A DNA stretch of 64,000 bases from Fragilariopsis cylindrus CCMP1102. Taxonomy: Eukaryota > Bacillariophyta > Bacillariophyceae > Bacillariales > Bacillariaceae. The notes under the pieces are model-generated. The model was given only the letters and a program-made list of their open reading frames with translations. It was not told the DNA's origin and made no database searches. Below, piece after piece: positions 1 through 57,544 of the stretch. Numbering within the stretch: the first letter of the stretch is position 1; each line of letters begins with the position of its first letter. The position numbers were made by a program, and so were the translations under genes. Where the stretch lies: assembly GCA_900095095.1 (NCBI GenBank), contig FMBT01000327.1, positions 248,001 to 312,000 of the forward strand, in the 5' to 3' direction.

Positions 1-1740
1 ACATAGATTCCAAATACGAACAACCATTCACTGTTGTCGAAGATACAGCATATTCATCAATTGGCGGATAATCGTCAACCATAGGTTGGGACGTTATTGA
101 ATCCGGTGGATCGTATAGTGAATCGCTACCCACCTTTTGAGGGCTCGAAAATGGCGAATATGACACTTTTAGACCCTCACCTGAAGACATTGAATCCAAG
201 TACGAACCACCTTCTACTGCCTGAGTATCAGCGACACTATAATCATCAGATTGTACTGGCTCTTCGTATTCTATAGATAGAGAAGATGATGGTGAAGCTG
301 GAGCTTCGTATAATAAATCACTACCCACCTTTTTTGGACTTGAAAACGGAGAGTATGATACTTTTAGACCTTCAGCTGATCCTCCAGACATGGATTCCAA
401 ATACGATACACCTTGTGCTGACTGAGTAACAGATTCATCAAATCTTGCTGTTTCATCATAATCTATAGATAGAGACGATGACGAGGCTGGAGCATTGTAA
501 AGTGGATCGCCGTCCACATTTTTAGGACTCGAAAATGGCGAATATGACGCTTTTAAACCATCAATAGAACTCGAACTCGACATAGATTCTAAATACGATA
601 CACCATTGTTCACCTCGGTAGTCGCAGACGAGGCGGCTGGTGTGGGGACCATCGCTACAGAGGCTCCTTCGTTAGAACCATCCGATGGTGGAGCGTACAA
701 TGCGTCGTTTGCGGTGCCCATGTCGGTTGAAGGTTCTTGTCCGACTCCAAAGGGAGAATACGATCGAGGTTGGATCTCATCGGTGACAAATGCCAATCCT
801 TCAAGATATGGTTGTGCATCAATTGCCATAGTAGCCGATGTTGCATACTCTTGGTCAACTTGAACATTTGGACGCGGTGGTTGAATTGGTGGTTGAATAG
901 GTGGCGTTCCCGAGTACGTTTCCTCGACTTTCGATTGCTGTTCGTCATTTTCTTGCCAATTGAGGCCAACTGTCCCTACCACCATGGCGACCGAAGCAGC
1001 AGCTATGTAATATATATCGTTTTCCTTACCGATGAGGGTGGTACTAGCTTTTGAGAGCTCCGTTGTCCCGGAAATGAGTTGGTTTACAACTGGTGCCGGT
1101 GCTCCAGTAACGGACGCGGCTGTAACGGTTCCGCTAGACATCGAAGCAACCTTTTGAGCTGATACGGTTTGTTGCCATTTTTGAAACGTCGATAATTTAT
1201 CATCAGACACAATCATAGTCGATGCAGGTCGTAATGTTGATGCTCCACCTGTATGCCTAAAACCGACGGCAGCTTCTCCCACACGTGTTTCGTATTGAGC
1301 TCGTTGTTCCTCTTGCCACGCTTCGTACGTCGACAACGACGGTGACGCATAGGTTGTTTTTCTTGCAGCCTTTGCACCAATACTAGCCTTACGTACTTCA
1401 GCTGTTGCCATCGCTTGACGAGAGGCCGCTTCTTCTGCTAGTCTTTGTTTTTCGGTCGAGTCCTCTTTAAGAAATCGTTCGTTCGCAGCAGATTTCTCAG
1501 CTTCTGCAAGTTTCACGGAGAAATCTTGTGCCTCCTTTAATTGGGCCAATTCTGCATCTCGAAGCTTCCGCATGAATTCTTCCTTCGCGACAATTTCCTT
1601 TGATATCCTGTTAATATTGGGGTAGGCAATGAGATTTCGAGTAAGTTGACAACAGCATAAATCAGTAATTGGTGACTGACGACGAAGAACGGCGTAAAAC
1701 CTATCTAACTCTCTCTCTCTCTCGTATATACACACACACA

Positions 1741-1774
<34 letters not shown>

Positions 1775-3015
1775 ATAAACTTACGCCTCTTCTGCTTCTT
1801 TTTTTAATCTTGCGGTTTCTTGAGCGGCAGCCTTCTCTTTTGCAAGAGCTGCGACACGCACTTTCTCCACCTCGTCGCGGAGACGAACTGCTTCTTCCTC
1901 TGCACTTTTGGCGCGTTTTTGCGCCTCGTCTTCACGTTGAAGGATTTGTCTTGTCTGGGCATCCAATTCAGCATTTTTTCGGGTTTTTTCTTCATCGCGT
2001 ATGTTTTGCATCCTTGTGGCTACTGATTTTTCGGCTGTCGTTTTTTTCTCGATTTCTAATTGAGCATTTCGTTCCCTTTCGGCTTGTATGATTTTCTGGT
2101 CAATGTAGGGCATTGGAACACGATATGGACCTTGTCCAACGCTCGTGATTTTCTTCGTTTCAGAAGAAGGAAAGGGTAGTTTTAACCCAGCATTCCCTAA
2201 AGCGTTCCCAAAAGCATTACTGACTCCGTCGCCGAGGTTTTTTATGCCATCGGGCAATTGTGGCACGGAGAATTTCGGACTATTTGGTAGATTGATATCA
2301 GGCAACTTGATGTCTTTCATTTTTGTGTCGAACAAAGATGATTGTGGTAAGGAAACGGAAGGGATTATTGGTGCCTTCAAGGATTTGATATCGGGTAAGT
2401 TCAAGGACTTGGCCGATTTCAACACTTCGCTAGGATTGACATAAATGTTCTTCACCTTATCAAGAGATAATCCCTTATCGCTAATAATTCCGGTACCAAT
2501 AGCTGCTCCTACTACTACGGCTGACAATCCTCCTAGTAAAGGCTGTATCATTATTCCATTTCATTACATTTTTGTTTTTGTTTTTTAGATTAACGAACAA
2601 AGATATAATAATCGATAACGATATCCAATGGCATCGACGTTTTCATTCCAATTGCGAAATTAATCCGTAGGTAAAAAAATCCAAATTGTTGCCCCGAAAA
2701 ATAAAAAAAGATAAATCATGTAAGAAAAAGTTACAATTTGTGATTGTGATTGTATTTTTGTTTGTTTGTCAACATATACTGCAAAGTAAATGCTGGAAGT
2801 ATCGTAGTATAGTAATACCGGTACAGTTGACAAAAGGAAAAGATAACAAATCATTGATCAAAACCGTCATACTGTACATGTATGACCAATGGACTGATTA
2901 CGTCTAATATATCCATATGTCCATATATCCATATAGTCTTAACATAAAATGAACGCAATATGAATTATTACGTACCGTTAACAAACCGTTTTTTCGTCTT
3001 CGTCATCGAATCAGG

Positions 3016-3046
<31 letters not shown>

Positions 3047-3738
3047 AAAGGCAACGTTGCTCTTCCTTCGTTCGCTAAAGGCATCGTTGCTCTTCCTTTG
3101 TTCGCTAGATAACTTTGCAATACACGGTCTTGTGACGTCGTGGGAGTTGACATAAGATGTTGTGTCGCTCGAGCGCCGCCACGTGCACCACCACTTGACA
3201 TAAGAGGTTGTGTCGCTCGAACGCCGCCACGTGCACCACCACCCAACGTCGCTCTCGGTATTCCCAATTGATCGGCTCTTAGTTTGGTGTTTTTGTCGGT
3301 TGATGTTGTGGTTGATGCTGTAGTTGCGTCGGCGGGTGTTCCTAAACTGTATCGGCTTCCAGACACGGTTCGAATCGTAGCTTTTTCTTTCAATGATCTT
3401 TTCGGATTTTTTAATGGACTTGTCAAGACGTTGTCTCCATCGGGTGATATAACACCTTTGATCCGTCCATCGGGTAAAAGCTTCCATGAATCTATTACTG
3501 CTTTTTTGTTTCTGGAAGGAGTCGTAGATGCGTACAATCGACTAATAATGTTGTTGCTGCTGCTGCTACTACTGCTGCTACCGCCCCCAGTGATAATAGT
3601 GGTGACGGTGACCTTGTTCCTTATTCTATCCGACGGTGGTGGAGAGATAAATCCAGTCGATACAGTCGTCGATAGTGCAAGTGCAATAAGAAATACCATC
3701 ACGCTCGTCGCCATCTTCTTCGTCATCATTATTTCCAT
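1..3738 (-). CDS. Paralogue A: presequence, W/HP box, PYID box, coiled coil and SPF-repeat protein (3' end beyond window)
   Basis: Three exons read on the minus strand: 3738-2976, 2532-1785 and 1607 to the window edge. The introns are 2533-2975 (GTACGT donor, TAG acceptor, phase 1) and 1608-1784 (GTAAGT, CAG, phase 2), and the frames join exactly. The ATG at 3738 is chosen because the frame further upstream has only a GTG. The order is: signal-peptide-like hydrophobic stretch ending STGF; a W...DG.I.G...DG..LTSPL...SGSRYSLG box near residues 80-135; a Gly/Ala-rich hydrophobic segment (GGLSAVVVGAAIG) just after intron 1; PMPYIDQKI near residue 395; a charged coiled coil across intron 2; a second hydrophobic segment (YYIAAASVAMVVGTVGL); then repeats of SYLESM, GLKxSYSPFSSPK and DxLYxAP. 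The SYLESM/SPF unit resembles the tail of paralogue G. Plastid-directed membrane scaffold is my inference; function unknown. The gene continues past base 1. Confidence 0.75.
1708..1773. repeat. (CT)n/(CA)n microsatellite in intron 2 of paralogue A
   Basis: A CT run is followed by a long CA run with one interruption. It lies wholly inside the 177-base intron and is not translated. Confidence 0.9.
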
Positions 3739-8251: not shown

Positions 8252-11200
8252 TTACAGAGTAAAAGTGAGCGACACTTCATCTTCACACGGAAGAGCGAAC
8301 TGGTTGTTGGTTTGTCCAACAAGATCCATGCTAATTGTAACAACTTCACCGGATCGTCCATTCAAATTAACAACATTTGTCACACTCTGTAGTGTTGTCC
8401 GACTTCTGGGAAGAAGAGTGGCAGGTAGTCCCGCTACTTGGGATGCACCACCGATACCACTGTCAGCACCGGCGATAGTGTCGGTAATTATACCGCTCAC
8501 AACCGTTAGAGGGAATGCTCCAGAGTTCTCGGCAAGGAAGTTAAACTCGACTGTAGCTTCGTTGACATTGACGGTGAAGGAAGCACCATCATCTTCAGTA
8601 TCAATGTATGCGTCCAAGACAAAAGCGCCAGCGATTGTGGCTCCGAGCGTCCAAGGTCCAGGACATAAAGTAGAGACAGTTTCTTCAGCGAGGTTGTTAC
8701 CATCAATGTCAGGGTCAGCATCAGAGATGACGAAAGTGACTTCTTCACAAGAATTGGCACGGGTACGGAAAGGGAAAGTTTCACCGGCTGCAATAGGTCT
8801 ATCAATGTAGGTTGTACTCTTGTCGCAGATGACTTCAACGAAGACAACATCACCAAGAGATCCATCGTACTTGAGGTAAGCAACCAAAAGCTCGGCACCA
8901 GCAGGGCAGGTAGCAGATTTCGGAGCAAGGATTTGGTCACATTCGACGCCTTCAAGACTGAGAACATTACATGTGATTTCAGCATCAATCTCGCATGTAG
9001 TAGTAAGAGGATCAGGAGTAGGGAATGGTGTGATGGTAGGACTAGGAGTAGGAACATTGGTTGGGAAAACAGGTAGGAGATTGAAACCGATCGTACATTC
9101 AAGGAAGCTGAAACCGTTACACATGTTGGTTCCATCGAGGGTTTCACCGATGATGGTAGTGAAAAAAGTGTACCGAGTACGTTCACTCAAATCAATATCA
9201 ATTTGGAATCCAGGAAGTTCAATAACATCACCAGGACCCAAAACCATACCAGCAACTTGTGATGTGTAGTCAATAGGCTGGTCTTGAGTATTAGTAAGAA
9301 CAGTCATTTCCAACAAACGAACAGGCTTGACGATGTCGGTAGATGTGTCCAACTTAACTTCGATTGTACCAGTTTCGACATCAGATTGCTTGTCGGATAC
9401 AACACGTCCTGATGTTTCAACCCATTCAGTAACTTGACTTGCTCCGAACTTATCGAAGAGGAACAATGGTTGGGAACAAGACAAATGCAAATCAACAAGT
9501 TGTAGAACATTTCCTCCTTCTGCATCAAAAATGGTGATGGTCATATCAGCTGAAAGCTTATCGAAAACTCTGTCTTGATTCAAGGTGTACTTCTCTCCGA
9601 CAGCAACGGGACCTGCAAAATAAAGGTCGGTTCCTCCACGAGGGACAGCAGTAATGTAACTTTGTGTTCCTTCAGCTGTAGGTGCACCTAGAAAAGACTG
9701 CAGAGATCTATTCTCTACAGTCGTCGGGTTATCAGTACAACTAAACTTTTGACGAGGCTGGAGATTATCGGATTGAGCACAGCCACCACCATTGTAACGG
9801 AAGGTAATCTCCCATGGACGGCCTTGACAATCGTTATCAAGGGAACTGTTGTACTGAGGACAACCAGTGAGGTCCACATCAATGACACAAGAAGACGTTG
9901 GAGAAGGCGATGGAGCAGGACTTGGGAAAGGACTGTTGTAGTAGTAGTTGTTGTTGTTGTTGATAGTGGATATAGAATAGAGTGGAATCAAAAAGTTAAT
10001 TTGTTAGTGTATATTACGTTGGAAAGAAATGGATTTCTTCTTATTAGGTGCTGTATGATATTCTTACCTTGGGTTGGGAGTAGGAGGAGGGGTGGGTGGA
10101 GTGTCCCATCCAAATTTAAGGTCGTCGACACCAGGACAGTTAGGGGGTAATCCTGTTTCAGGGTTGGTAGCATTGGCTGTGATATTAACACAGCTTTCAT
10201 ATTCTGCACATCTGTTAACATCAACGTCATAAGTATCGTAGTAACATTCACCAGGAACTAATGTAACATCTGCAGGAGGAACATCTTGGAGAAGATCAAT
10301 TTCTTCTTTATTGAGGGTCAAGAACCAATTATAGATCTGTTCATCTTGTGTTGTTCCAGTGTTACAGACCTTGAGACCGTAGCTAACTTCTTGAATACAG
10401 TTATGAACATCAGTAGCGTCACAGCTATATCCAATCGATTCAAATGAACCATAGTCACTGATCAAGACCAATCCATTTCCACCGGCACACGCAGAGTCGA
10501 TCTCGAAGGTTTGGGTTACTTCACCAGTAGGGACAGAAATGGTAGTACTGAGACAGTCAGGGAGACATGTATCTGCAGTAGCAGCAATTGTAATGGAATC
10601 ACCTTGTTGTGCTTCTCCAGTAGCAAATACTACAGTTGGATCGGTACAGCTAGTGATTCTGTACCCTGCGATGAATGGGTTAGGTCCCTCGTCGGCGCAG
10701 TTGCCAGAGGCAGAGAATGCTGGGGAACAAGCAAGACCGGTGTACACGAATTGAAGATCACGGACACATTCAGGACAACTACAGACAGGTTTGTCTTCTT
10801 GAGGAATATCTTCACAGGCAATCTCTTCACTGTTCATGATGGCGGTACAGTTAACACATGAATCGATTGAACACTCTCCAGTAGGAGCGAGGGTAGGGGG
10901 AGGAGTAGGTGGCGGCGTTGGACCAGGAGTAGGTGGCGGTGTTGGACCAGGAGTAGGTGGCGGCGTTGGACCAGGAGTAGGTGGCGGCGTTGGACCAGGA
11001 GTAGGTGGATTAGTAGGTGCCGGTGTTGGACCAGGAGTAGGTGGCGGCGTTGGACCTGGAACTGGTGGATTAGTAGGTGCTGGAGTAGGTGCTGGAGTTG
11101 GTGGTGGCGTTGGACCTGGAGTTGGTGGTGGCGTTGGGTACGAGTCCACGTCTAATACCAATTGTTTCCAGAATCCTGCATCTTCTCCTGTTTGGGCACC

Positions 11201-11257
11201 TACGAAAGCGATAGTAAACGCCTGCAATGCTAGTAAGGTAATGGCACTAAACTTCAT
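8252..11257 (-). CDS. Secreted Cys-rich protein with Pro/Thr linkers (cell-surface or wall protein)
   Basis: Two exons, 11257-10068 and 9932-8252, joined across a 135-base intron (GTAAGA donor, CAG acceptor, phase 2) that restores the frame; 956 residues. The ATG at 11257 opens a clear signal peptide (MKFSAITLLALQAFTIAFVGA). A long TPPPTPGPTP-type linker follows (about residues 35-125). Then come three similar Cys-containing beta-rich units separated by further Pro-Ser/Thr linkers. Each unit has a front part with a DLQFVYTG / EITFRYNG / VAYLKYDG strand and a later part where a C.(D/E).(T/V).I segment and an N.L.(S/A)..G-type strand recur. There is no membrane anchor at the C-terminus. Pro/Thr-linked secreted proteins are common in diatoms and oomycetes. 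A role in cell wall, mucilage or adhesion is inferred; I assign no family. Confidence 0.8.
10880..11150 (-). repeat. Pro/Thr-encoding minisatellite (TPPPTPGPTP-type units)
   Basis: Tandem units built on the pattern GGxGTTGGxCCxGGAGTAGG (plus strand) encode the Pro-Thr linker of the secreted protein. Unit homogeneity suggests slippage or unequal exchange. Confidence 0.85.
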
Positions 11258-13426
11258 CTTGTTGCGTGTTTGTTGTGTTGTAGTTTTCACTTCGACGTGA
11301 CGTTACTTTCGATAAAGATAGAATGACAAAAGGAAAAAGAACTACTGGTGTTTGCTCTTTGTTACTTCTGCTTGGTTGCTTTGTTCTTTGTTTGAAAAAG
11401 AGAGCTTGTTTAGATTGTGTGTGTATAATAAAGATTGTGAGTTGAAAGGTATTGGTACACGCTTATAATGAATACCCGCCGTGCAAAAGATAGATTTATT
11501 TAAAAAAAAAGGGAAACCCAAATTGCTGAGCGAACGTTCCTAGAGATGTACTATCGATTTCAAGCAAAAGAAGCGAGCACTTTTTTCCTAAGTAATACTC
11601 ATTTTTTTTCGCCGGCACTTTTAACGGCTAGCGTTAAATACGTTGAACGCACATGGTAAATTGTAAAAAGCGCTTGCATAATAAATTTTTGGAATGGCTT
11701 GCTACTGCATTTTGTTCTTCAAGTGTGAATGGCGATTTAAGTTGAGCGATCGATGAGGTATTTTACTTTAAGTAAAATAGGGTCGTGCGGTGGTCACTTG
11801 AACACGAACACATACAATTATACCGTATCAGCGATCATCTGAGATTCTACAGTAGATGATTGATTCTTTCGAAAATCTTTTCTACTACTGTAGTACTAAT
11901 CGACACTCACTTAAACAACTACAGTAGTAGGCGCTGCTTACCGTTGAATGCGGAGTACAACGCACATACAGTACTAAATCGATATTGCAAATATCAAGTG
12001 TTGGTGCCTACCTCCCGGTAAGTATGGATTAAGAGTACTTCCGTATGATAGCTGAATTTATCTAGAAAATAATTATGATACAAAAAATTCTCTATTAATC
12101 ACGCTAGGTGCGGTGCGCCTTTATTTTGCGCACAACTCACTATCATTCTTTGTCATGATGTCGATCGCATACTAAAACTTAGAATGTGATCACTTTTTCT
12201 GATACAGTATCACCGCTCGCACTACTCAGTACCAGTACTCACTATTCACTATCGTTTGCCTTTACAACAATATACGGTATGACTTTAGTAACAAAACCAC
12301 CGCATTCGGCTTGGATAAAAGGAGTACCTTCTTCCTCGCGCTCTCTGCCAAAGAATGTACGTTCCGTCCTATACTACGATGGAAGTCTCTACATACTGTA
12401 GGGATATCGAGAGAGATATTCACTTATTAGATGCATTTTTCGTATGGGTAGTCAAGTCAATCCATTCAATCAATTGCAACATTTGGTTGGTATTTTACCA
12501 ATGGTCATTGCGTCGAACCTTGGGTGAATCAGAGAGAGAGAGAGAGAGAAATACCAGATACGAGCAGGGAAGTTTGTTCGTATTTTACATCTCGTTGTAC
12601 TTCCATGCATTATGTCATGGTGTCAATCATGCTGATGCTACTACATCTTATAATACCGTGAGCCTTCTAGTACAGATCAACAATCAACAATCAACCAATT
12701 GGAACTAAGTATCTCAAGGACTTTCAGCTGAGGATGTATACCGTCAAGGTTATTCAAACCCGATACGTTATTCGAGACGCCAAGAAAGGGAGTAAATACC
12801 GAGGGAAAGATAGTGTGAAAATTGACACGACAGTTTGATATGAAATGCCTCATGCTACCACTATAACGTATGGGACACACACACACACACAAACGCTGCC
12901 GTGTTTGAAAGCGACTATCAATGTACCCCCATCTTACCCATTTGTTTCGCCCTGAATATTGAGGGCGCTTCATGCGTTGATGGAATTGATCATACAGTAT
13001 TATTATTGTGTCGTTCCTCTCCACTGTATATTGGTATTATCTCTCGTTGTAGATTCAAATATCAGACTTTAAAAGATAAAGAAGGATACATATCCGGCTA
13101 GCTTGCTAGCTTGCTAGCTAGCACTAAAATTGTGCCCATAAATTTTATGTAGATAATCGCTGGTTGATTTCAAAAGTTTCCAAACCATATACTCAACTGA
13201 ATTTTGAACGAAAGATTGTTCCAGGAAGCCTATTCTTGTCCACGTTGTGCCGGTAAAATTGTAAATAAGAAACAAGAAATGAACGAATCTTCCTCTGTTT
13301 GCAGTTAAGAATAGAGATTTAAGATTTCGCATGTAGGACATAGGTAGAGTTTACCTCCAGATGATTGAATTGAATGAATTAGCCAGTGTTGTTTACTATC
13401 TCTGACATACATTTAAATCTTCATTT

Positions 13427-27638: not shown

Positions 27639-27753
27639 ACAAAAACTATTGAATTAGGATAAAGCTAATGTACAACTTACTTCTCTAGATCGAGAGAAAA
27701 AAGCACTTCCTGTTTTAACCTAATATTAAGCATATGTGTAGATAAAGTAAATG

Positions 27754-37238: not shown

Positions 37239-37706
37239 GACTATTGTTACTAGATACTATTTTCGAGGTATGCAAAGATGCATCATTACAAATCAAATCA
37301 CAATTATTTGATGCTTTCACATACATTAAACCAAATCATGTACTTGGGTACTTTTCGTTTCAGTTCACAATTCTCCGTTCGAAGTCGACATCAATTGACT
37401 TTCTACAACAGTCGTTCTGGATGCGACTTTTTTCGAGCGTGGTGACACAGAGATATTCTGTCACGTAGTTCACTTTTTTACTCATTTGAGTATGCGTAGT
37501 CCGTGATCAAATCCAGTCCCGTATAACCACTATCTAGCATCGTACAATACTAACAATATATATATCCTATAATGAGAGACAAGCAGTACTGTACCATCAG
37601 TTTAGCTACCAAGGAAAAGAACCGTTTACCTCAGTATTTAATTGATCGTTTATAGTCTTATAATATTTAAATTGTTTATTCTTTTTTTGTCATTATTATG
37701 TATTTA
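37239..37706. promoter_or_regulatory. Spacer between paralogues E and D (tandem, same strand)
   Basis: 468 bases from the stop of E to the first ATG of D. It holds the 3' end of E and probably the promoter of D. No gene or clear motif is seen. Confidence 0.45.
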
Positions 37707-40700: not shown

Positions 40701-43052
40701 GTTACGTTCCTCGTCAGCTTTTGCTTCTGAATCGAGACGTTTCCTTTCCTCGTCAGCTTTGGCTTGTGCCTCTATTCTTATCCGTTCCTCGTAAGCAGCT
40801 TTAACTTCTGCAACAGCATCAAGCCGTTTCCGTTCTTCCTCAGCTTTTGCTTCTGAATCAAGACGTTTCCTTTCTTCGTCAGCTTTGGCTTGTGCCTCGA
40901 TTCGTATCCGTTCCTCGTCAGCAGCTTTAGCTTCTACAGCCTCAAGTCGTTTCTGTTCTTCCCCAGCTTTTGCTTCTGAATCAAGACGTTTCCTTTCTTC
41001 GTCAGTTTGGCTTTGGCTTGTGCCTCGATTCGTATCCGTTCCTCGTCAGCAGCTTCAGCTTCTACAGCAGCCTCAAGCCGTTTTCGTTCTTCCTTAGCTT
41101 TAGCTTTTGCAACAGCAAGATCCTCAGTAGGATTTGAAACTTGGTCTGAAACTTGGTTTTGATCACCATCTCGAAATCTTCGTCGTATTTCGAACGACGT
41201 AACTAAAGCCGCACCTCCAGCTACTCCTGCTGTTGCTACTGTTTGGATTCCATTTTGAATCTTTTCCAAAATAGACGATTTTTCATCCGTTTTCCGATCT
41301 TGTTTTATTTCTTTTGCGGTGGGGGTATTGACATTTTTGACCGATCGTCCTGTTTTCCGTTGTCCTAGTTCCTTCTGCTGCTGCTGTGAGCTGTTCTTGT
41401 TGTCTTAAGTCAATTTTGGCTTTCTCATTAGCCCTCTCTAGCTGCTGCTGCTCTTGTTGTTGTTGTAAACGTTGCTGTTCTTCTAGTTTGGTTTTTTCAG
41501 TAACTCGTCTTGCCGTTTCTTCTTCTTGTCGTAGTTCCTTCTGCTGCTGCTGCTGCTGCAGCTGTTCTTGTTGTCTTAAGTCAACTTTGGCTTTCTCGTT
41601 AGCCCTCGCTTGCTGCTGTTGCTGCTGCTGTTGCTGCTGCTGTTGTTGTAAGCGTTGCTGTTCTTCTTCTACGAGTCGCATCTGTTGTCGTTCCAATTCC
41701 TTTTGCCTCTTCTGGAGTTCAATTTTTTCTTGCTGCTGCTGCTGTTCTTTTTGTCGTAAGTTAACTTTGGCTTTCTCCTTGGCCTCCACTTGTTGTTGTT
41801 GAAGCCGTTGCTGTTCTTCTCGTCCGAGTCTTGCTTTTTCAACAGCTCGTCTTGCCGTTTCTTCATCTTCAAGTCGCGTTTGTCGTTCCAATTCCTTTTG
41901 CTTCATCTGATGATCGAGCTTCTCTTGTTTTAATTTCTCTACCTCGGCAGCTTTACCCTTTTCCTCCTCTTCTTTTATCTGTAATTGCTGTTGTCGTTCG
42001 ATATTTGTCTTCTCAGATATCGCAGCCGCTCTTGCCTTTTTTTCTTCTTCTATATTTTGTCTTTTTTGTTCTCGTTCAATTCTGGCATTTTCAGCCTCCT
42101 CTTTCGCAGCCGCTATGCTAGCCTTTTTATCTTCCTGTTGTTTCTGGTCCTGCTCACGTACAAGTTTGGCTTTATTTGTGTTGACCGTTGTTGTCACCGT
42201 CGTTGCAGGCGAATCAAAATTAGCAGCATCAATAATACCACCTGGGTCGTTTGCTACGTTCAGCCCAATAACTCCCGCAACTCCAACAGCAGCAGCAACA
42301 CCCAAGGCATTAAAGCCACTTTTTGTTTCTGACGTCTCTAGTTCCGTCATTTGATCGACGATTTGACGTTGGTTTTTCGATGATGTCGTCGATGGAGGTT
42401 TGGGACTCATTTTGATGCTGTTGCTGTTTTTATTCCTACCGAAAAGACTTCTCCTCTGAGGCTTTTCCAATTTGTAACGACTACCAGTTTCAGTGGTAAT
42501 TACCATACCTTGTTTTAAATTATTTTCTATAGGAGCGGATGCTGAAATGACATCCCCATCCGGGAGTACAGGATGACCGGTAACAGTACCAGTCAAACGA
42601 CCGGTCGTTGAATCAATCTTCCAATCGTCGATGATGGGTATTCCACCTTTTCTTGGTAGGGTTTGTCTCTTGAGTTGTAAAGGTGGGCCTGGTGGTGGCA
42701 CAACATTCTTCGCTTTTCTCCTTTTTTTCTTTGGTGTTTCCAATTTGTATTCACTTCCCGATAATGTTGTGACGATCACCCCCTTCCCTCCTGCAGCGAA
42801 ATCAGGATTCGATAATGGTGAAGTCGTAATTTCTTCAAAATCATCCAAGACAGGATGTCCCTTTACAATCCCAGTCAATGTTCCATCTTTCAATAATTCC
42901 CATTGATCAATTTTTGGTATTTTCTTGTTATTATTCTTACTTGAAGAGAAAGACAAAGCGTCAACCGTCGTCGTCGTCGTCGTCGTGGCAATATACACCA
43001 TGATAGTGACGGCAATGACGTCAAGCAGCATTTTCTTTTTCCCGATCATCAT
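37707..43052 (-). CDS. Paralogue E: presequence, two W/HP boxes, long coiled coil and GOLD protein with three single-base frameshifts
   Basis: Exons 43052-38308 and 38144-37707, phase-0 intron of 163 bases (GTACGT donor, TAG acceptor) at the shared GOLD position. The frame above the ATG at 43052 has only a TTG. Signal plus VDAL-S site; two W/HP boxes in tandem (DQWELLKDGTLTGIVKGHPV and DDWKI ... GTVTGHPVLPDGDVI), each ending SGS/TGS-x-Y-K-L-E-x-P; a Gly/Ala hydrophobic segment (NALGVAAAVGVAGVIGL); Gln-rich then Lys/Glu coiled coil; a second hydrophobic segment (TVATAGVAGGAALVTSF); then about 800 residues of AKADEERKRLEAVAKA-type heptad repeats in place of SPFG repeats; then the GOLD-like domain (SVPIRVSTPGTIVEFTVEKK, YDFGFGI / CTMQFKFENNYSS, LSYKIKVTPPS) and helical tail. 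Frame breaks: one extra base near 41388, one missing near 41005, one missing near 38625. The corrected length would be about 1727 residues. Confidence 0.7.
38168..38232. repeat. 7-base minisatellite inside the GOLD intron of paralogue E
   Basis: About eight units of GTGAGCA, grading into ATGAGCA, lie inside the 163-base intron 38145-38307. Each unit contains a GTGAGC donor-like sequence on the plus strand but not on the transcribed strand. Confidence 0.9.
38930..41100 (-). repeat. Coding repeats of EERKRLEAVAKAKA type in paralogue E
   Basis: Degenerate 30-60 base units encode alternating Glu/Arg and Ala/Lys heptads, giving an uninterrupted predicted alpha-helix of several hundred residues. 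Two frame breaks lie at or beside its ends. Confidence 0.85.
41470..41800 (-). repeat. CAG/CAA tracts coding for poly-Gln in paralogue E
   Basis: Several Gln runs, the longest of about 14 codons near 41610-41650, lie inside a Glu/Lys/Gln coiled coil. Confidence 0.85.
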
Positions 43053-43631
43053 CTCCGTTTTCCAATTGCCGTATGACGGTAGCAAGTAATGAACTTAGAA
43101 TATAAAGCAAGAAGGGAATAAAATGATGGCACTTCCCGCCCTACCAATCATAATTTTTGCTAATGCTTTGATTTTTGTTTGCTTTGATGGATATCGTCTT
43201 AAAAATCTTTTTTGTCCTCATTTAATTTCAAGTGTAGTTATTAATGGGGCGGAAAATATCCACGTAGTATTAATGAGTACATATCTATCATACCTACCTT
43301 GACATGATTGTATTCATAGGTAAAAAATTAAATTAGCGTTTTTTGTGACGTCACTGAACGGTATGCACGCAAGACATAAAAAAAATAAAAAATACGGCGA
43401 TTTGAATTTTCGTCCGTTTGTTAAATTCAAATGTTGTGTTATTGTTGCCACAGTTGACACGGTCTGCACATCACATACTGAATACTACCGGAATAAAAAG
43501 GAGAGAGTCGAATGAGGTCAAATTGAACATTACAATCTGAATAAAAAATAATATCGTAAATTGAATGGCTGAATGAAAGAATTTGAATACGAACAAAAAT
43601 ACGAATCGAACGAACGAACACGACCAATATA
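43053..43631. promoter_or_regulatory. Divergent promoter region between paralogues E and F
   Basis: 579 AT-rich bases between the ATGs of two divergent family members, so co-regulation from a shared promoter is possible. No gene is seen. It includes a perfect CRE-like TGACGTCA at about 43347-43354. Confidence 0.5.
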
Positions 43632-46600
43632 ATGAATGCCATGAACGAAAACTGCGGAACCAAAGAACAAAGGGGAGGAAGAATAAGAAGAAATTATCCT
43701 CGTCGTTCGTCACCACAGAACAATAAGAAAAGAAGGAAAGATAAGACCAAGTTCTTACTCGCGGCTGCGACCACTGCTGCTGCTGTTACTGTTACCTGTT
43801 GCCTTTCTGCGTCTATGAATACGTTGACATCATCATCATCATCATCAAATAGAAATATTGTTGCCGTGGATGCCTTCTCTTTCAATCCATTCCAACAACG
43901 CCACAGCCGGCAGCAGCACCGTACGAAGAACACTGTTTCTATTTCATCTTCTTCTACTTCTAATGAAGAAATTCAAGAAACTTCTAACGGAGAAAATCAA
44001 GAAAACACCAACAGCAATAGCATGAATCCCTCTCTTGTTGATTGGAAACTCGAAAGTAACGGAAAACAAATCACGGGAAGATCTGCGAATCATCCTCTAA
44101 TACCAGATGGTGAACTATTGACGACTGCGTGTTTGGACTTGAATTGTTTCGATAGCGATAGCGACAATGAAGATATTAACAACCTTCAAGCCGGGGACGT
44201 CATAACTACGATCAAAGGTACAAAATACGAATTGCTCAAATCTTCACCAGAATCTGATTTTGATTTTGATACTGCTAGTAGTGCTTGTCAACCAGGACAA
44301 GTGTTTAAAGAAGATGTGTTTTCATACAGCACAGGATTACCATACGAGGATCAACTAGCTTTCTTAGATGAACTAACTGAAATGGTGAAAACATTGCAAG
44401 CGGCGGAAGCGGGAACTACAAGTACTCCGATGTCTAGTAGTACTGATAGTGATCCACAATCACAAACCAATATGAGTATGCCACCAGAATCACCCGTAAG
44501 TCCTGATTATTATGAACAACAAGGTAGTAGCAGTAGGTACAAAATGTATACTTCACCTGCTATTGATACCGTTGCTACCGTTGCTGTATCACCTGATAAA
44601 AATCGAAATAATAATAATAACGATCGTGGTAGTGATAGTGATAGTGGTAATGGTATGTCTCCCGATAGTGATAGTGGTAATGGTATGTCTCCCGACAGTG
44701 ATAGTGATAGTGGTAATGGCATGTCTCCCGATAATAACAAGTTTAGTAGTAGTAGTAGTAGTAGTAGTAGTGCAGGTAGTGGAACAGCACAGCAGCAGGG
44801 ATTGGAAGAGTCGCAACGGCCGACATTTTCAGACGACCAATTGAAGCAACAGCAACAGCAAGAATCATTGTCTACCAATAACAACAATCGTATTCTCGGT
44901 GGTGCTGGTGTTGTTAACTTAGCGGCAGCTACAGCAGTCGCAGCCGTTTCACTTGGTGGTGGAACACTACTATCGGGAATAGGAACTGATATAATGGATG
45001 AAGCTAAAAGACAAGCGGAAGCGTCATTATCACCTCAAGCAAAAGAACTACTTGCATCTGTTACTACTAAGGTCCAAAAAGAATCGAAGGTTGCTCTTCC
45101 TTATCTGGAAGAACAAATTCGTATCGCCGAAATGAAACTTGAAGAATCGAGAATAGAAGAAAAAGCTAAGAATGTATGGAACGAGATAGCGAATTCTTTA
45201 AATACACCATCATCTCCAAGGATGGAAACGGAAACTACAACCACAACAATAGCATCCGCAACAACTACGACCGCAAATGAAGAAGCGGCTGCAGTGATAC
45301 CTGAGTCGATCGAATCAATATCAACAAGAGAACAGGCTATCACTGATACTACTGAAAAACCTGGAAAAGCTGTATCTGAAAAAACAGCTAATATTGAAAA
45401 TGATGCTGGAGAACAACCGTCATTGTTGGAAAGTAAGAAAGTTGCGATGGTAGAAGAGTCGTTGTCATCGACACCATTGTCATCGACACCATTGTCATCG
45501 ACACCATTGTCATCGTCATCATCATTAGTTGCTAATACCGCTAACGAAGAAGAAGCGGCTGCAATTATCCCCGAGTCAGTCGAAGTAATATCAGCAATAG
45601 AAGAGGCTGTCCCAGCTACTAACTCTGCCGAGCAGTCAATGGGGTCATCCAGTGTTGACAATGCGGTCGTTGACGATGTATCGATGGCGTTGAAAGACGA
45701 GGGAGGAATGGCATCATCTGCAACAGCAATCTTCGAGGAAAAGGCATCAACGTCGATTGATGCAGAAACGGATTTGACTGCAAAGGAACAAGCACCGATG
45801 GCAAACATTGCTGATAGTGACGTCGCGGACAAAGCAACAACAGATACAAATGCGGAGGAATGGTCAGCGATTGAAAATAATGCAGCGACGGAGATGGTTA
45901 CGGAACAAGCACCAATGATGAACGTTGAGAATGAGGAAGGTGAAAGCGATACAATTCAAGCACAAACTGCAGGAGAAGAACAAGAATTGGTCGATACTAA
46001 TCGAATCGTTTCGGAACAATTGGAGGCAGCCCGTCTTGAAGTGGAGAAAGCCGACGGTAACGATAATGACAACAATAACAATATCGAAGCGGCTACTACG
46101 ATTGCAACTGTCGAAGAGAATAAAAACTCCTTTGAAAAATCTTCTCCTTCTTTGATTGAAACCTTTGGTGGTAATTTCGTCGTCGTTGAAGAATCACAAC
46201 CCGGTGATGTCCGAGAACCTATTCGTCTTTCGGTAGACAACACCTTTCTCAACGAAGATTACGATGTAACGACTTCAGATAACTCTATCATCGATAACAC
46301 TGTAGGATCCGATACGGCTTCAAGTAAGAGAACTGTTACCGGTCAAAATCCCACTCCGGAAATGATGAAAGATGCTATCACGGTAGAAGTAGAAAGGGTC
46401 GTTGATTCATCAAGCAATAAAGAAGGAGCTATTTCAACCGAGACGACGACGACTAAAATGCCTGAGATTATTGTTGTTGCGGGCGGAGTGTTTGAGAATG
46501 GAAGACATATCATTGACACCGTGAGCAAGAATTTACCGGAGATGATTGATACAGGAAAAAAGACAGCACAATCGATCGCTGACACCGGACGAGAGGTAAT

Positions 46601-49418
46601 AGATACGGGAAAACGAACATTTCATACTATTCAGACCGAAGTACCGGGTATGATTGATACAGGGAAAAGGACGGCAGAAGCAATAGGAGATACTGCTCAA
46701 AAGGCCGGTGTAAAGGGAAAGGAAGTATACGAAAATGGTCGGAAGTACGCCGGGATCGTAAACGAGAAAATCCCAATACTAGTAGAGACGGGACAAGCTA
46801 TCTTACAAGACGAACAAAAGGTGAAGACTATTGCCGCTGGTGTCACTATTGGTGCCACTGTTGTTACTGCTTCCGTTGCCACCTACCAAGCAGAACAACT
46901 ACTAGAGAAAAAGACAGACGAAATAGACAAGGGCAGCAGCGACGGTCCTGTGCGAGAGCCTCCAAATTCTGTCGTTTCCGCCAAATCCACCAGGGAAGGG
47001 CCATCCCTCACGAATCACGATAAATCGACATCAAACCCCAATGTAGGGCCTTCGACGCCGGATAAGGAGAAGTTGATTCTCGCCTCAAAATTAAATACAA
47101 CAGCTTCAGCGACTCAAGAAATGACAAAAACTGAAACAACGGCATCTGTAGCGCCCGTGAAGAAGGTATCATCTCCAAGCTTTGGAATGCTTGGAGTGCA
47201 GAGTAATAAATTCGCTACTCTAACGACGCCCAAACCTATGCCAAAAGAAGCAACCAACGGAGATGGCGAAAACGAAACTAGCTCTGCTCCAAAACCTTTC
47301 CCTAGTCAGATCGGATCGAATGGCAAAGTCACGTTTCAACCTATAAATAATAGTACTGTATCGAAGGAAGATGTGGATGTGTCAAAGATCAATGTGCCTA
47401 AGATTAATAATATAATTTCCGCTCCTCAAATTGTTCCGGAGAAACAAAACTTTCCATCGACTGATGCAAAGAATAATCCGTCCAAGCCAATCTTTAATAG
47501 TACACAAGTTAAACCAGCATCGGAAGGGGTGATTGATGTTACTCCGAGCTTTGGGATACCCAATTTAAAGAATAATACCATATCAAACACAACGAAGGCT
47601 AAGTCCTCTACATCATTATTCGGAGTGACGCCGTCCACGGCATCTCACGGTCAAGATCAAGGTAAAAAGCTGTTCCCATCAATTCGGCAAAAGATGGACG
47701 GAAACAATAATAGCGAGAATATAAAGTCTCGCCCATTCCCTGTACAAGATAGGAAGGATTCTCCTTTTCCAGCGACAGGCAAAGCGAACCCAACAGTGGC
47801 ACTTGCCCAAGATGAAAAGAAGTTCCCATTGCCAACTGCGAATACAACATCAAAGAAGACTGATAGTACGCCGAGCTTTGGGATGCGTTATGCAAAAACA
47901 AATACCTCATCAAACAGTACAAATACTAAGGCCTCTACGCCATCGTCTACACCATTCGGTGTAACGTCGTCCTCGGCATCTCAAGGTCTAGATCAAGGTA
48001 AAAAGCTGTTCCCATCGTTTCCGCAAAAGATTAATGGTAATAATGATAGCGAGGATACAAAATCTCCCTCATTTCCTGTGCAAGATAGGAAGAAGTCTCC
48101 TTTTCCAGCTACAGGAACATCGGATCCAATTGAAAAGGATAAGTCTCCATTCCAATCAACTAATTCGTTTCCCGTAAAAGAAAAGAATAATTCTCCTTTT
48201 CCAGCGACAGGAACGCCGAATTCAACTGTGCCGCTTGACCAAGATGAAAAGAAGTCTCCATTCCCACCAACTAATCCAGCGACAGGAACATCGAATCCAA
48301 TTGAAAAGGAAAAGTTTCCATTCCCATCAACTAATTCATTTCCTGTAAAAGATAGGAATAATTCTTCCTTTCCAGCGACAGGAACATCGAAGAATTCAAC
48401 CGTGCCGCTTGCCCAAGATGAAAGGAAGTCTCCATTCCCACCAACTAATTCATTTCCTGTACAAGATAGGAATAAGTCTCCTTTTCCAGCGACAGGAACT
48501 TCGAATCCAACAGTACCGCATACCCAAGATGAAAAGAAAAAGTCTCCATTCCCATCACCATCGGGACCGGCACCCAATTTTGGAGTCTTGCCAAAAAAGA
48601 CCGAGACTTCTACTAATTCATTTCCTGTACAAGATACGAATAAATCCCCTTTTTCAGCGACAGGAACATCAAATTCAACCGTGCCGCTTGCCCAAAATGG
48701 AAAGCAAAAGCTTCCATTCCCATCACATATGTCATCGGGACAGAGACCTAATCTTGGGGTCTCACCAAAAAAGACCGAGACTTCTACCAGTCCATTTCCT
48801 GTACAAGATGAAAAGAAATTTCCTTTTCCATCGACAGGAACGTCGAATCCAACCGTGCCGCTTGCCCAAGATATAAAGAAGAGAAATCCATTCCCACCAC
48901 AAGGAGCGAGACCCAATTTTGGGGTCTCATCAAGAAATAACGAGACTTCTACTAAGAATTTCTTCCCAGGGGCATCTAATTCAAAACCAAATTTCGGGAT
49001 GCCGTCCACGCCAAAGCCCAATTTTGTTGTATCGAAAAATACTGAGAACAAAACAGCCAAGAAAGATCATCGATCTTATTTCACCGACACTTCCACTAGC
49101 GGATATGACGTGTCGCCAAATTTATCATCATCTTATAACACCAGTCCTTCGCCAGTGGAATCCGTCGTGGAGACCGCAGTGTCGGCGTCATCGGCGTCGT
49201 CGTTTCCAACTTATAACACCGGTCCTTTACCAGCGGAATCCGATTACATGTCACAATCTTCAACTGAAGAGAATCAAGAAAAGAGAAATAGTCCACGTAT
49301 AAGACCGCTCGAAGAAAGTTCTTTGAACAGAAACGAAGGAATGTATGGAAAGTCTCCCGATGAGCTTATGGCCGAGGTGATGAGAATAGCTCGTGAGCAA
49401 GAAAGAGAAGCTCGATAA
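43632..49418 (+). CDS. Paralogue F: presequence, W/HP box, PYLE box, amphipathic repeats and SPFP-repeat protein
   Basis: A single uninterrupted exon of 1928 residues. A basic N-terminal tail precedes the hydrophobic signal (KFLLAAATTAAAVTVTCCLS, about 42-62) and the VDAF-S site near 82. The W/HP box follows (VDWKLESNGKQITGRSANHP, DGELLTTACL, KGTKYELL), then SGNGMSPDSDS repeats, a Gly/Ala hydrophobic segment (NLAAATAVAAVSLGGGTLLSG), VALPYLEEQIRIAEMKL near 492, a Ser/Thr/Glu-rich region, and an amphipathic stretch of DTGKRTxxxI-type 11-residue units (about 960-1060), resembling late-embryogenesis-abundant helices. After a second hydrophobic segment (TIAAGVTIGATVVTASVA, about 1070) comes a long disordered tail with SPFPATGTSNPTVPLAQDE and SFPVQDRNKSPFP units. 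The motif here is SPFP/SPSFG rather than SPFG. There is no GOLD domain. It ends in a short charged helix. Confidence 0.8.
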   Translation: MNAMNENCGTKEQRGGRIRRNYPRRSSPQNNKKRRKDKTKFLLAAATTAAAVTVTCCLSASMNTLTSSSSSSNRNIVAVDAFSFNPFQQRHSRQQHRTKNTVSISSSSTSNEEIQETSNGENQENTNSNSMNPSLVDWKLESNGKQITGRSANHPLIPDGELLTTACLDLNCFDSDSDNEDINNLQAGDVITTIKGTKYELLKSSPESDFDFDTASSACQPGQVFKEDVFSYSTGLPYEDQLAFLDELTEMVKTLQAAEAGTTSTPMSSSTDSDPQSQTNMSMPPESPVSPDYYEQQGSSSRYKMYTSPAIDTVATVAVSPDKNRNNNNNDRGSDSDSGNGMSPDSDSGNGMSPDSDSDSGNGMSPDNNKFSSSSSSSSSAGSGTAQQQGLEESQRPTFSDDQLKQQQQQESLSTNNNNRILGGAGVVNLAAATAVAAVSLGGGTLLSGIGTDIMDEAKRQAEASLSPQAKELLASVTTKVQKESKVALPYLEEQIRIAEMKLEESRIEEKAKNVWNEIANSLNTPSSPRMETETTTTTIASATTTTANEEAAAVIPESIESISTREQAITDTTEKPGKAVSEKTANIENDAGEQPSLLESKKVAMVEESLSSTPLSSTPLSSTPLSSSSSLVANTANEEEAAAIIPESVEVISAIEEAVPATNSAEQSMGSSSVDNAVVDDVSMALKDEGGMASSATAIFEEKASTSIDAETDLTAKEQAPMANIADSDVADKATTDTNAEEWSAIENNAATEMVTEQAPMMNVENEEGESDTIQAQTAGEEQELVDTNRIVSEQLEAARLEVEKADGNDNDNNNNIEAATTIATVEENKNSFEKSSPSLIETFGGNFVVVEESQPGDVREPIRLSVDNTFLNEDYDVTTSDNSIIDNTVGSDTASSKRTVTGQNPTPEMMKDAITVEVERVVDSSSNKEGAISTETTTTKMPEIIVVAGGVFENGRHIIDTVSKNLPEMIDTGKKTAQSIADTGREVIDTGKRTFHTIQTEVPGMIDTGKRTAEAIGDTAQKAGVKGKEVYENGRKYAGIVNEKIPILVETGQAILQDEQKVKTIAAGVTIGATVVTASVATYQAEQLLEKKTDEIDKGSSDGPVREPPNSVVSAKSTREGPSLTNHDKSTSNPNVGPSTPDKEKLILASKLNTTASATQEMTKTETTASVAPVKKVSSPSFGMLGVQSNKFATLTTPKPMPKEATNGDGENETSSAPKPFPSQIGSNGKVTFQPINNSTVSKEDVDVSKINVPKINNIISAPQIVPEKQNFPSTDAKNNPSKPIFNSTQVKPASEGVIDVTPSFGIPNLKNNTISNTTKAKSSTSLFGVTPSTASHGQDQGKKLFPSIRQKMDGNNNSENIKSRPFPVQDRKDSPFPATGKANPTVALAQDEKKFPLPTANTTSKKTDSTPSFGMRYAKTNTSSNSTNTKASTPSSTPFGVTSSSASQGLDQGKKLFPSFPQKINGNNDSEDTKSPSFPVQDRKKSPFPATGTSDPIEKDKSPFQSTNSFPVKEKNNSPFPATGTPNSTVPLDQDEKKSPFPPTNPATGTSNPIEKEKFPFPSTNSFPVKDRNNSSFPATGTSKNSTVPLAQDERKSPFPPTNSFPVQDRNKSPFPATGTSNPTVPHTQDEKKKSPFPSPSGPAPNFGVLPKKTETSTNSFPVQDTNKSPFSATGTSNSTVPLAQNGKQKLPFPSHMSSGQRPNLGVSPKKTETSTSPFPVQDEKKFPFPSTGTSNPTVPLAQDIKKRNPFPPQGARPNFGVSSRNNETSTKNFFPGASNSKPNFGMPSTPKPNFVVSKNTENKTAKKDHRSYFTDTSTSGYDVSPNLSSSYNTSPSPVESVVETAVSASSASSFPTYNTGPLPAESDYMSQSSTEENQEKRNSPRIRPLEESSLNRNEGMYGKSPDELMAEVMRIAREQEREAR
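44629..44730 (+). repeat. 30-36 base coding repeat (SGNGMSPDSD units)
   Basis: Three to four near-identical units encoding DSGNGMSPDS, followed by an AGT run coding for poly-Ser up to about 44773. Confidence 0.85.
45462..45520 (+). repeat. 15-base coding repeat (STPLS units)
   Basis: Four copies of a TCATCGACACCATTG unit encode repeated S-S-T-P-L. Confidence 0.9.
48050..48900 (+). repeat. SPFPATGT coding repeats in paralogue F
   Basis: Degenerate units of 100-150 bases encode FPVQDRNKSPFPATGTSN and TVPLAQDEKKSPFP. They form the sticker-like part of the disordered tail. Confidence 0.8.
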
Positions 49419-53967: not shown

Positions 53968-56900
53968 ATGAGATTTCATCCGTTAGCGGTATCGGTCGTC
54001 GTAGGCGCATTGGCATCATCTTCGTTTTCTTCTTTTTCGACAGTGGTGTATGCCTTTGTGGTACCAACATCGTTATCCCAAACTACTGCACAACGGTATC
54101 TAACAAAATCAAAAACAACGGCACGCTATTTGGGTGATGGTGGTTTTGGTGGTGATTCCACGTACCTGTCGTTAGATGACGATACCCCCACATCGTCGTC
54201 GTCGTCGTCGTCGTCATCATCACCATCACTATCGCCAACAACAAGGAGAAAACCAGAACCAAATGCACGTGTGCAAAATAGACGTGCCCAACTCGAAGCC
54301 GATCTAGCTGCTGCCGAAGAATCTAAAGCTCGTACAGCACAACAATTGTCAGAAGCGGAAGAATTTCGTTCAGCCTTAGCTGCACAAGAAGCAAAAGCTA
54401 TTAAGGAAGCAGAAGCGTTAGATGCGAGACTGAAAGCCTTTGAAGAGAGACAAGCCAAAGCTGCTAAAACCGGTGGGAGCATTAAAATTTTTACCACCAT
54501 CGGTGAAATTGCAGGTACATTTACTGCAGTAATTGGTGCACGTGCCGTATTGGCAGAACGTAGTCAAAAAGTCGAGGAAGAACGTTTGCGAAGAGAAGAA
54601 GAACAACGGATAGCCGAAGAAAAAGCGGAGAAGCTAGCGAGACAACAGAACTCGAGGGAAAATGTGTTACCTATAGTAGTTGGTACGGTTGGGCTAGGTG
54701 CATTTGGAGCTTTCTTTGGTGGAGGCATTGGTGGTGGGGGAAGTGAATCCATCGTCAACAGCATGAGCAAGAATGCTCTACAGAACACCATGGGCAACCA
54801 ACAACAATCTGTAGGTCCTGACAACTCTCCAACTGTTGAAATGCCATACCTCGAGAAACAAATCGCTAAAGCAGAAACGAAATCAAAACAAAAAAGAATA
54901 TCGACAGGACCAAAATCGAAACGGACATTAGCACGAGAAGCCGCAGAAGAACAAAAGGCTATAGAAACAAGATTGGAGGCTCGTTTGGTACGTACAAAAA
55001 TTATGATGTATTTATTATTTTTATCTCGCTCTGTAATCTTTATCTTTGGCGTATCTTATATTTCTAAAATTTCGACTTCCGGTATGACGAATTAACATTG
55101 ATTTTTCAAATCTATTCTAAAGGCTGATGCACCCGATCGAGAAGCAGCCGAAGTCGAGTCACAAGCTGCTGCAGAATCAGCTACTGCGGAGGAAATAAAG
55201 ATCGAGGCAGAACGTAAAGCATTGCTAGAGAGACAGGAAGTAGAGCGCACAGTGGCCGAAGAAAAACTTGCTGCCGAACAAAAACTTGCTGCTGAACAAA
55301 AACTTGCTGCCGAACAAAAACTTGCTACCGAACAAAAACTTGCTGCCGGACAAAAAGCCCTAGAAAAAAAACAGCGAATTGCAGCGGAAGAGAGAGCTCA
55401 GGCGGATAAACTTTCCACTGAAAATCGAATTAAAACAGAGAACATAGCTCGTAATAAAGCAGAAAAGGAAGCTAAACAAAAAGAGGAAGCTCAAAATAAT
55501 GCAGAAAAACTTGACGCCGTCAAACGGGAAGCCGTTGCCCTGTAAGTTTTGGTATATCACAAACCACCCTTCTTGTTTTTGAAATACTGTATACAAAAAC
55601 CAACCAACAAATATACACAGTCGCTAGGTTGCTGTTCGAGACGCTCGTTTTGTTCCAATCCATTCATTCGTGCGAGATGTATGTGGCTTTATTACCTGAC
55701 TTACCCTTCACCCGACATCTGGTTATTTTTCTCTCTACTTTTGTTCATAACATTTAATCTATATAACTGCATGGTGGTGTAGTGAGTTGTTAAAAGAACA
55801 AAATGCTGAATCAAATGGTTATTTTCCAAAGGTACCGGCAGTGTCAGAAATGTTGTTTGGAGACAAAAAGCCATCACAGGTCACCGACAAAGGATTGTCA
55901 AATATTTTTAATGGAATCCCGATCGTTGTGGGAGGAGTTGCGTTAGCCGGGATAGCGGTAGCAGCGGCCATTATAGCCGCAAATGAGTCTCCATCTGTTA
56001 GTAGGTAAGTTCCGACAAGAAACGAATGAATCGACCCTTTGCACTGCGATTTAATTGCCAAAATTTATCTACCACTAGTTGATTCAATTAAAGAATACTC
56101 TAACATTATATGATGACGTTATCTATTTTCCAGTACATTCAAGGTAACTGGGAAATCACCCAAAGATTATATGGAGGCACCTGGTGCTGATACTACATCT
56201 GCACCTAAAAGTGCACCTGCACCTGCTCCACGAGGGACTGTTCGTATTCCACAACCTGAAGAGACTGTATCATCATCGTTACCTAGCCAAAGCAAAAACA
56301 CACTTCGGGATGAATTGTCCAAACAAAGGGCCAATATTAATCAACAAGCAGCAGAAAAATCGTCAATTGCTTCTAGTCCTTCGTCGGATTCTGCTAATAG
56401 CTTCGCACCACCTCCGACCAGAAAATCGTTCTCGCCTTATGGAAATATGAAGCCTCGAGCGGCATCAAGCGATCCTCTCTCAGCTTCGATGACACCAACA
56501 GTAACAGCTTCGAGCCCAGCATTCGCTGAGACTGACGCCTCCTCTTCTTCGTGGTCACCGTCACCGTCAACGTCGGATACCGCAGCTACCGGTGCGTTCT
56601 ATCTCGAGGGTATGGGCAGTGGAGGACAATCAGATGTTCCTCTTCCTGCGAAGAATTCCTTCTCTCCCTTCGGAGGAAAAAAACCTACATCGATCATGAA
56701 TGATCCATTGTCTTCTAATACAGCTTCACAAGATTTGATGGGTGGCGGCGGCAACATCAGCAATCCAGTAGTTCAGTCATCTCCTGTATCCCCCCAGCCA
56801 TCTCTTCCTGAACCCGACTCTTCCGGTCCAGTATCGTTATTGCTTAATGGATCTTATATGGATACAATCGGAGCGGGGTCATCCTCTGCAGCTCCTAAAA

Positions 56901-57544
56901 GGTCGTTCTCTCCATATGGAAGTTCCAAGCCTGTGGCTGCTAAGAGTGACTCACTTTATTCTGCTCCAGCTTCACAGATTACAGAAACACAGGTACCGGT
57001 GCCAACAAAGGTAACTGAGTCTACATATACTCCATCCAATGAATTTGACACAAGCGATATTGGAGGAGTAGGACCGATCGCTTCTACTCCAGGAAAAATT
57101 TATTCTCCTTTTCAAAGGTCCAAGCCAGTAGCTGCTACAAATGACTCTTTGTATTCTGCTCCATCCGTACAACGTATAGAGAATGAAAGTAATAATTATG
57201 ATATTCCAGATATCGAGTCATCCTACACAGCTCCCGACTCGTCATCGATCGCACCCAACGTATCTCCGCCACGTAAAAGCTATTCGCCCTTCGGTGACGC
57301 CAAGCCCGTTGCTGCTGGTAGCGATTCGTTGTATTCTGCTCCCGGTGGTGGAACAGAAGAATCTTCGACTTCGACCATGCCTTATGCGGCAAGCGGTCTT
57401 GACGACACATCAACTGTCTTTCCAGAAACTACTGCTTTCCGAGCGACTGCTGCTGTTAAAAAGTCTTTTTCTCCGTTTGGCTCTAAACCTGCAGCACCTA
57501 GCAAATCCAACAATACTGGCGGTGGATACTTGGATGAACTTTAG
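53968..57544 (+). CDS. Paralogue G: presequence, PYLE box, AEQKLA repeats and SFSPFG/SLYSAP-repeat protein
   Basis: Four exons: 53968-54987, 55123-55541, 55783-56004 and 56134-57544. Introns are 135 (GTACGT/AAG, phase 0), 241 (GTAAGT/TAG, phase 2) and 129 bases (GTAAGT/CAG, phase 2); all frames join, giving 1023 residues. MRFHPLAVSVVVGALASSS ... VYAF-V is the signal and plastid-type site, nearly the start of paralogue C. Then: coiled coil 95-170, hydrophobic segment (IFTTIGEIAGTFTAVIGA), a short coil, a Gly/Ala segment (VVGTVGLGAFGAFFGGGIG), EMPYLEKQIAKAE near 293, a coil with five AEQKLA units in exon 2, a further hydrophobic segment (IPIVVGGVALAGIAVAAAIIA) in exon 3, and a disordered exon 4 with five to six KxSFSPFG / KPVAAxxDSLYSAP units. 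It ends FSPFGSKPAAP and YLDEL. No GOLD domain or W/HP box. Confidence 0.82.
55256..55355 (+). repeat. 18-base coding repeat (AEQKLA units)
   Basis: Five consecutive units of the pattern GCTGCCGAACAAAAACTT encode AAEQKL in the coiled coil of paralogue G. Confidence 0.9.

Follow-up and report, generated by a model that had tools for sequence, protein, structure and literature searches.

Seven clustered modular genes in a diatom genome as candidate membrane-anchored scaffolds of the chloroplast

Overview

The stretch considered here, 64,000 nucleotides of the Fragilariopsis cylindrus CCMP1102 genome (FMBT01000327.1, positions 248,001 to 312,000; C68:248001-312000 in our numbering of a genome of 818 contigs and 67.9 Mb), will be called the window. 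It contains seven large genes, A to G, a genuine family of modular genes that a Bacillariaceae-like diatom shares with its relatives and that lies outside the curated libraries searched. Judging from sequence, their products are probably membrane-anchored sticker scaffolds of the chloroplast. The fuller reading, that they are nucleus-encoded, membrane-anchored, multivalent chloroplast scaffolds, most probably belonging to the pyrenoid or its edge, falls a little short of an even chance; a role in the pyrenoid, the compartment of CO2 fixation in diatoms, is the leading, unproven interpretation. Diatoms contribute heavily to carbon fixation, yet little is known of how they keep Rubisco, thylakoid and shell together, and a motif shared by clustered genes beside a shell gene opens this question to direct peptide-binding and localisation tests.

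A chain of shared modules

Gene models were derived from open frames and frame-keeping GT-AG junctions (Table 1). They bear out the seven genes reported in an earlier note on both strands of positions 1-57544, and gene A extends beyond the left edge of the window. Five models are clean, while D and E change frame several times, and thus the lengths of their products are uncertain. Contig C618 represents the second haplotype, matching the stretch from D to F at 99.9% and that from G to the shell gene described below at 99.1%. Contig C578 is a haplotype copy of the first 14 kb of the window, including gene A, at 97.2%.

The earlier note ascribed one order of parts to all seven genes. This fails, as E has neither the PYLE box nor SP[FY] motifs, and the repeats of F are of the SPFP type. 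By sequence comparison, the genes are a chain of shared modules in which not every pair matches. Blastp with low-complexity filtering (SEG) joins all seven into one chain (A-G 1e-13, A-E 3e-7, B-D 1e-13, C-D 1e-43, D-E 2e-9, D-F 6e-6, E-F 2e-8), although the values for B-D, C-D and A-G are inflated by composition, since these alignments rest on the repeat tails. C and D are the closest pair, and one stretch of the C tail is 79% identical to D, which suggests a recent exchange between these genes.

The hydropathy profiles show, behind a signal segment, one or two Gly/Ala-rich segments that precede the PYLE box and another that follows the coil-like part; the second hydrophobic segment of E lies in a shifted frame. 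The PYLE box, PY[LI][DE]xx[IV], occurs exactly once in each of A, B, C, D, F and G, where shuffling gives no more than 0.0025 per protein, and E has it in none of its frames. The AF-type site that the earlier note gave to all seven, read by eye and with no signal predictor, is AF in B, C, D, F and G, G-F in A and A-L in E, so that an aromatic residue, Phe, follows the likely signal cleavage site in six of the seven proteins and Leu in the seventh. The giant charged coil-like stretch of E was found as predicted, in an open frame of 832 amino acids (aa).

No Pfam family reached the cut-off in the scanned open reading frames (ORFs) and pieces of A-G, and a scan of B and F against NCBIfam returned no family. 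Sub-cut-off Pfam matches to coiled-coil families and domains of unknown function (DUFs) were weak and were set aside. Thus the array of modular paralogues without a named family stands, with relatives elsewhere, but two of the modules once counted with it, GOLD and the W/HP box, are not specific to the family. Among the papers listed on diatom pyrenoids, linkers, GOLD and PyShell we recognised no description of the family, although 2024 work on diatom pyrenoid proteins may list it; a literature match to 'spfg' is an unrelated nuclear magnetic resonance term.

Relatives of G (P0001-P0019), A (P0032) and D (P0042-P0047) that share the order of parts exist elsewhere. Named relatives of the G protein come from Pseudo-nitzschia, Nitzschia inconspicua and a Bacillariaceae metagenome-assembled genome, the last being 88% identical over 59% of the query. 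The strong hydrophobic segment has a mean hydropathy of 2.4-2.5 in the two G relatives tested. One further candidate, P0039, a Nitrospirota histone-like protein, was taken as a match of composition and was dropped.

The plastid-type starts recur as well: AF is present in the G relatives with a complete start (TF in P0017) and in five of six D relatives, the sixth being without its start. This bears on the possibility that the signal peptides only resemble the plastid type and that A-G are secreted or belong to the cell wall (silica vesicle). Signal peptides and low-complexity tails rich in Ser, Lys and Pro would suit such proteins, and a Pro-rich, secreted-looking protein is encoded in the window (10064-11290). 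However, the Phe behind the likely cleavage site of all members but E and the sites of the relatives argue against it, and we consider it improbable.

Even less probable is that these are fast-changing repetitive genes, partly decaying and without a common function. It would account for the frame changes in D, E and the C618 copy of G (C618:31650-32750). However, copy-specific frame changes at simple repeats are also expected from assembly error, and since the C618 copy of G changes frame too, the evidence suggests assembly error as much as decay. Moreover, the D relative P0042 has an uninterrupted frame of 2229 aa and is 81% identical over the part searched, the start of G is open in close relatives (P0033), and across genera G retains its motif, its C-terminus and its order of parts. 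The ratio of nonsynonymous to synonymous substitution rates (dN/dS) between haplotypes, 0.48 for A and 0.91 for G but with the C618 copy of G frame-shifted in places, is not usable; nor is it for D, E and F, which are identical between haplotypes over the compared codons.

Sticker-like repeats in the tails

SPF motifs, ascribed by the earlier note to A, B, C, D, F and G, are far above shuffled sequence in A, B, C, D and G (SP[FY]G: G 5 against 0.06 in shuffled sequence, B 26 against 0.14, D 13 against 0.10), but F has SPFP-type repeats instead. That note named no function and made no use of the repeat K-x-S-[FY]-S-P-F-G in the tail of G or of the shell gene, which lies beyond its coordinates. 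The SP[FY]G units are kept in most relatives.

The surroundings of the motif were counted in 53 windows from 13 G-like proteins, near-identical ones being excluded; positions -2 to +3 are largely fixed by the pattern. The flanks favour Lys at -4 (42/53) and -3 (44/53), Ala at +9 (41/53), Leu at +15 (30/53) and Tyr at +16 (29/53). Of 32 windows from five D-like relatives, 26 carry Pro at -5 and 28 carry Lys at -4. The spacing of the units has a median of 64 residues and a range of 22-147 (70 spacings in 15 tails, 65 of them within 48-108). An SYLxxM/L element precedes most units in gene A, P0032, P0029 and P0019, and an LYx[AP]P partner accompanies the S-P-[FY]-G unit in G and A. The net charge in the 13 G-like proteins, with P0029 taken whole, is +0.176 per residue in the motif stretches and -0.086 in the spacers.

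The genome was searched for S[FY]SP[FY]G as a DNA pattern with TCN serines only. Twenty of the 32 matches fall in the cluster or in its copies from the second haplotype (C578, C618), and only the contigs of these have more than one match; the other 12 occur one per contig. The reversed control gave 8 matches.

These observations suggest a model. The N-terminus would target the protein to the plastid, and the hydrophobic segments would hold it in a plastid membrane; the coil-like part may oligomerise it, and the tail would be disordered. The S-P-[FY]-G units would bind a common partner, which could be Rubisco, the shell or each other, with GOLD and the W boxes serving as putative extra docking domains. 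By analogy with the Rubisco-binding motif of Chlamydomonas, one sticker on differently anchored proteins could tie together matrix, membrane and shell. The model draws on the N-termini, which appear plastid-type by eye, the hydrophobic plan, the excess of sticker units over shuffles, their concentration in this cluster and their positive charge among acidic spacers, the shell gene near G on both copies and the likeness to the PYCO1 sticker.

A pyrenoid shell gene next to the array

A gene of the diatom pyrenoid shell family (DiatomPyrShell, PF25192; E 5e-64 and 3e-11) lies 4.6 kb beyond G, and the linkage is repeated on the haplotype copy C618. It is the only PF25192 gene in the window; no such domain was found in the scanned ORFs and pieces of A-G. 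The genome has 19 stretches matching the family, counted as 15 genes when the two haplotypes are taken together, four of the stretches being first exons that belong to others. No SPF array is present in any of the three distinct shell proteins read. The neighbouring shell protein resembles A-G in its AF-type site, and the same organelle would be expected if A-G are pyrenoid scaffolds; it differs in its folded shell domain.

Comparison with known pyrenoid systems

According to the available text on PYCO1 of Phaeodactylum tricornutum (PMC10288592), this protein binds Rubisco via KWSPRGGS and condenses via tyrosine motifs; its repeats are of about 80 residues and its isoelectric point (pI) is 10.03. 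It resembles the proteins considered here as a diatom plastid repeat protein with a regularly spaced aromatic-Ser-Pro sticker (compare SYSPFG), with a second tyrosine motif, GTGYNP (compare SLYSPP of the SPF proteins), and with positive charge in the conserved half of its repeat, as in the SPF motif stretches. The SPF unit and KWSPRGGS have a similar core order of Lys, aromatic residue, Ser-Pro, one residue and Gly. On the other hand, the PYCO1 sticker contains Trp and Arg, and the protein is not described as membrane-anchored in that text. The repeats of A-G are of the SFSPFG type and not the KWSPR/Q sticker. A motif search gave no PYCO1 orthologue: KWSPRG as a DNA pattern occurs once in the genome, on C299, and the reversed control also gave one match.

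For Chlamydomonas, the accessible part of PMC10473226 proposes that the pyrenoid is held together by a single motif present on proteins of the matrix, the tubules and the sheath. EPYC1, RBMP1/2 and SAGA1/2 are similar to A-G in that one short motif is present on proteins with different anchors. They differ in the motif itself and the Rubisco type, the paper does not present them as paralogues lying side by side in an array, and for the Chlamydomonas motif binding was tested. Tentatively, and with the chances against it, the SPF box may serve red-type (diatom) pyrenoids as a shared sticker for Rubisco or the shell, borne by a family of paralogues on linkers, membrane tethers and coiled-coil spacers encoded beside a shell gene. 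If true, it would be an independently evolved diatom counterpart of the Chlamydomonas motif.

Several observations weigh against a pyrenoid role. E has no SP[FY] in any frame, F has no SP[FY]G, its repeats being of the SPFP type, and the relatives P0046 (D-like), P0020 and P0028 (both G-like) are also devoid of SP[FY]G; in P0046 a long Ala/Glu/Gln-rich stretch replaces the repeat array. The G-like tails are acidic (pI 4.3-6.0), whereas PYCO1, as described in the text available, is basic. The likeness to KWSPRGGS extends over a few residues aligned by eye, without the essential tryptophan, and no database search links the two. A comparison of a G-like tail with solved structures gave nothing meaningful. 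The family has no named match from Phaeodactylum or Thalassiosira. The chance of a shell gene in a 64-kb window is about 1.4% (15 copies in 67.9 Mb), but this estimate is post hoc. Finally, all bestrophin matches are on other contigs, with no linkage to the array.

Some of these facts fit a different chloroplast scaffold, in which FG-like tails form a meshwork organising thylakoids, the envelope or plastid division, with no link to Rubisco or the shell. The plastid-type and hydrophobic features would fit it equally well, SPFG-rich tails, above all that of B with its 26 SP[FY]G units, could be self-cohesive, and the acidity of the G-like tails, unlike PYCO1, is in line with it. The W box also occurs in other proteins with plastid-type starts, some of them kinase-like by reading. 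However, the shell gene next to G would then be a coincidence, and the Lys-flanked aromatic-Ser-Pro unit does resemble a known Rubisco sticker. This alternative has a substantial, if minority, share of the probability; pyrenoid scaffolds remain the preferred reading.

GOLD domains and W/HP boxes

The GOLD domains reported for B, D and E are real. The fold is a beta-sandwich superposing on solved GOLD domains, as tested on the relative P0044. At the sequence level, the GOLD region of B matched no GOLD family of Pfam at E 0.1, and a sequence search of solved structures returned nothing meaningful. B, D and E are similar to GOLD-domain proteins (p24/TMED, ACBD3, SEC14L) in having this fold near the C-terminus, and differ in the plastid-type signal and an otherwise unrelated architecture. 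A separate protein encoded at L005:4098-5386 combines GOLD with a coil-like part, has no evident signal peptide and is related to the corresponding ends of B, D and E. As the fold is known and also occurs in this separate protein, GOLD is not special to the family.

The W/HP box, a small folded part close to the N-terminus, was likewise found where expected, in A, D, E and F, with two copies in E. It is common in this genome (L006-L009, L020-L029) and not special to A-G. Elsewhere it accompanies a region read as kinase-like, occurs in tandem, or stands by itself together with a hydrophobic segment behind an AF-type signal. Identification with the SANTA domain was not supported, as PF09133 matched none of ten W boxes at E 10; its single match in the genome is at another place. 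The Luciferase domain PF17648 matched two of ten (best 18.8 bits, E 0.0019, cut-off 23.7) and was set aside. A W-box profile found nothing meaningful among solved structures, the best match, ribosomal eS8 (E 0.005), being judged a chance one.

Features of the window

Table 1. Array genes, their parts and the shell gene (window positions; H1 and H2, hydrophobic segments)
Feature	Position	Strand	Length	Description
Gene A	exons 3738-2976, 2532-1785, 1607-1, plus about 300 bases past the left edge	-	1139 aa	signal and GF site, W box, H1, PYIDQKI, coil-like part, H2, tail with six [FY]SP[FY] units and SYLxxM / LYx[AP]P partners
W/HP box of A	3334-3498 (C68:251334-251498)	-
Gene B	exons 14742-19940, 20058-20498	+	1879 aa	signal and AF, coil-like part, H1, PYLDKKI, coil-like part, H2, 26 SP[FY]G repeats, C-terminal GOLD and coil
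GOLD of B and following helix	19809-20459	+		intron-split
Gene C	20959-25049; exons 25049-24495, 24129-20959	-	1241 aa	signal and AF, two hydrophobic segments, PYLETQI, coil-like part, H2, KQSFSPFG repeats
Gene D	29692-37238 (left end approximate)	-		signal and AF, W box, H1, PYLEERI, H2, SPFG repeats, coil-like part, GOLD
Frame changes of D	near 32600, 31150, 30700 (overall 30600-32700)	-
GOLD of D	30087-30209, 29692-29913	-
Gene E	37700-43085 (left end approximate)	-		signal and A-L site, two W boxes, H1, H2 (shifted frame), giant charged coil-like part, GOLD; no PYLE box
Frame changes of E	near 41400, 41045, 38620 (overall 38600-41450)	-
W boxes of E	42729-42920, 42456-42641	-
GOLD of E	38308-38436, 37830-38123	-
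Gene F	43632-49418	+	1928 aa	single exon; signal and AF, W box, H1, PYLEEQI, acidic stretch, H2, SPFP-type repeats
W box of F	44028-44252	+
Gene G	53968-57544; exons 53968-54987, 55123-55541, 55783-56004, 56134-57544	+	1023 aa	signal and AF, two hydrophobic segments, PYLEKQI, coil-like part, strong hydrophobic segment IVVGGVALAGIAVAAAIIA, six [FY]SP[FY] units
Shell gene (DiatomPyrShell, PF25192)	62111-63803	-		two exons, own signal and AF site, not an array member

Other genes lie between the members of the array. A DUF7467 protein is encoded at 8252-9991 (-) and adjoins the gene of the Pro-rich, secreted-looking protein (10064-11290, -), which contains PTPPPTPGP repeats. The region between C and D (25503-29019) contains a glycosyltransferase-like ORF, just under the Pfam cut-off, and a lipid-droplet hydrolase-like gene.

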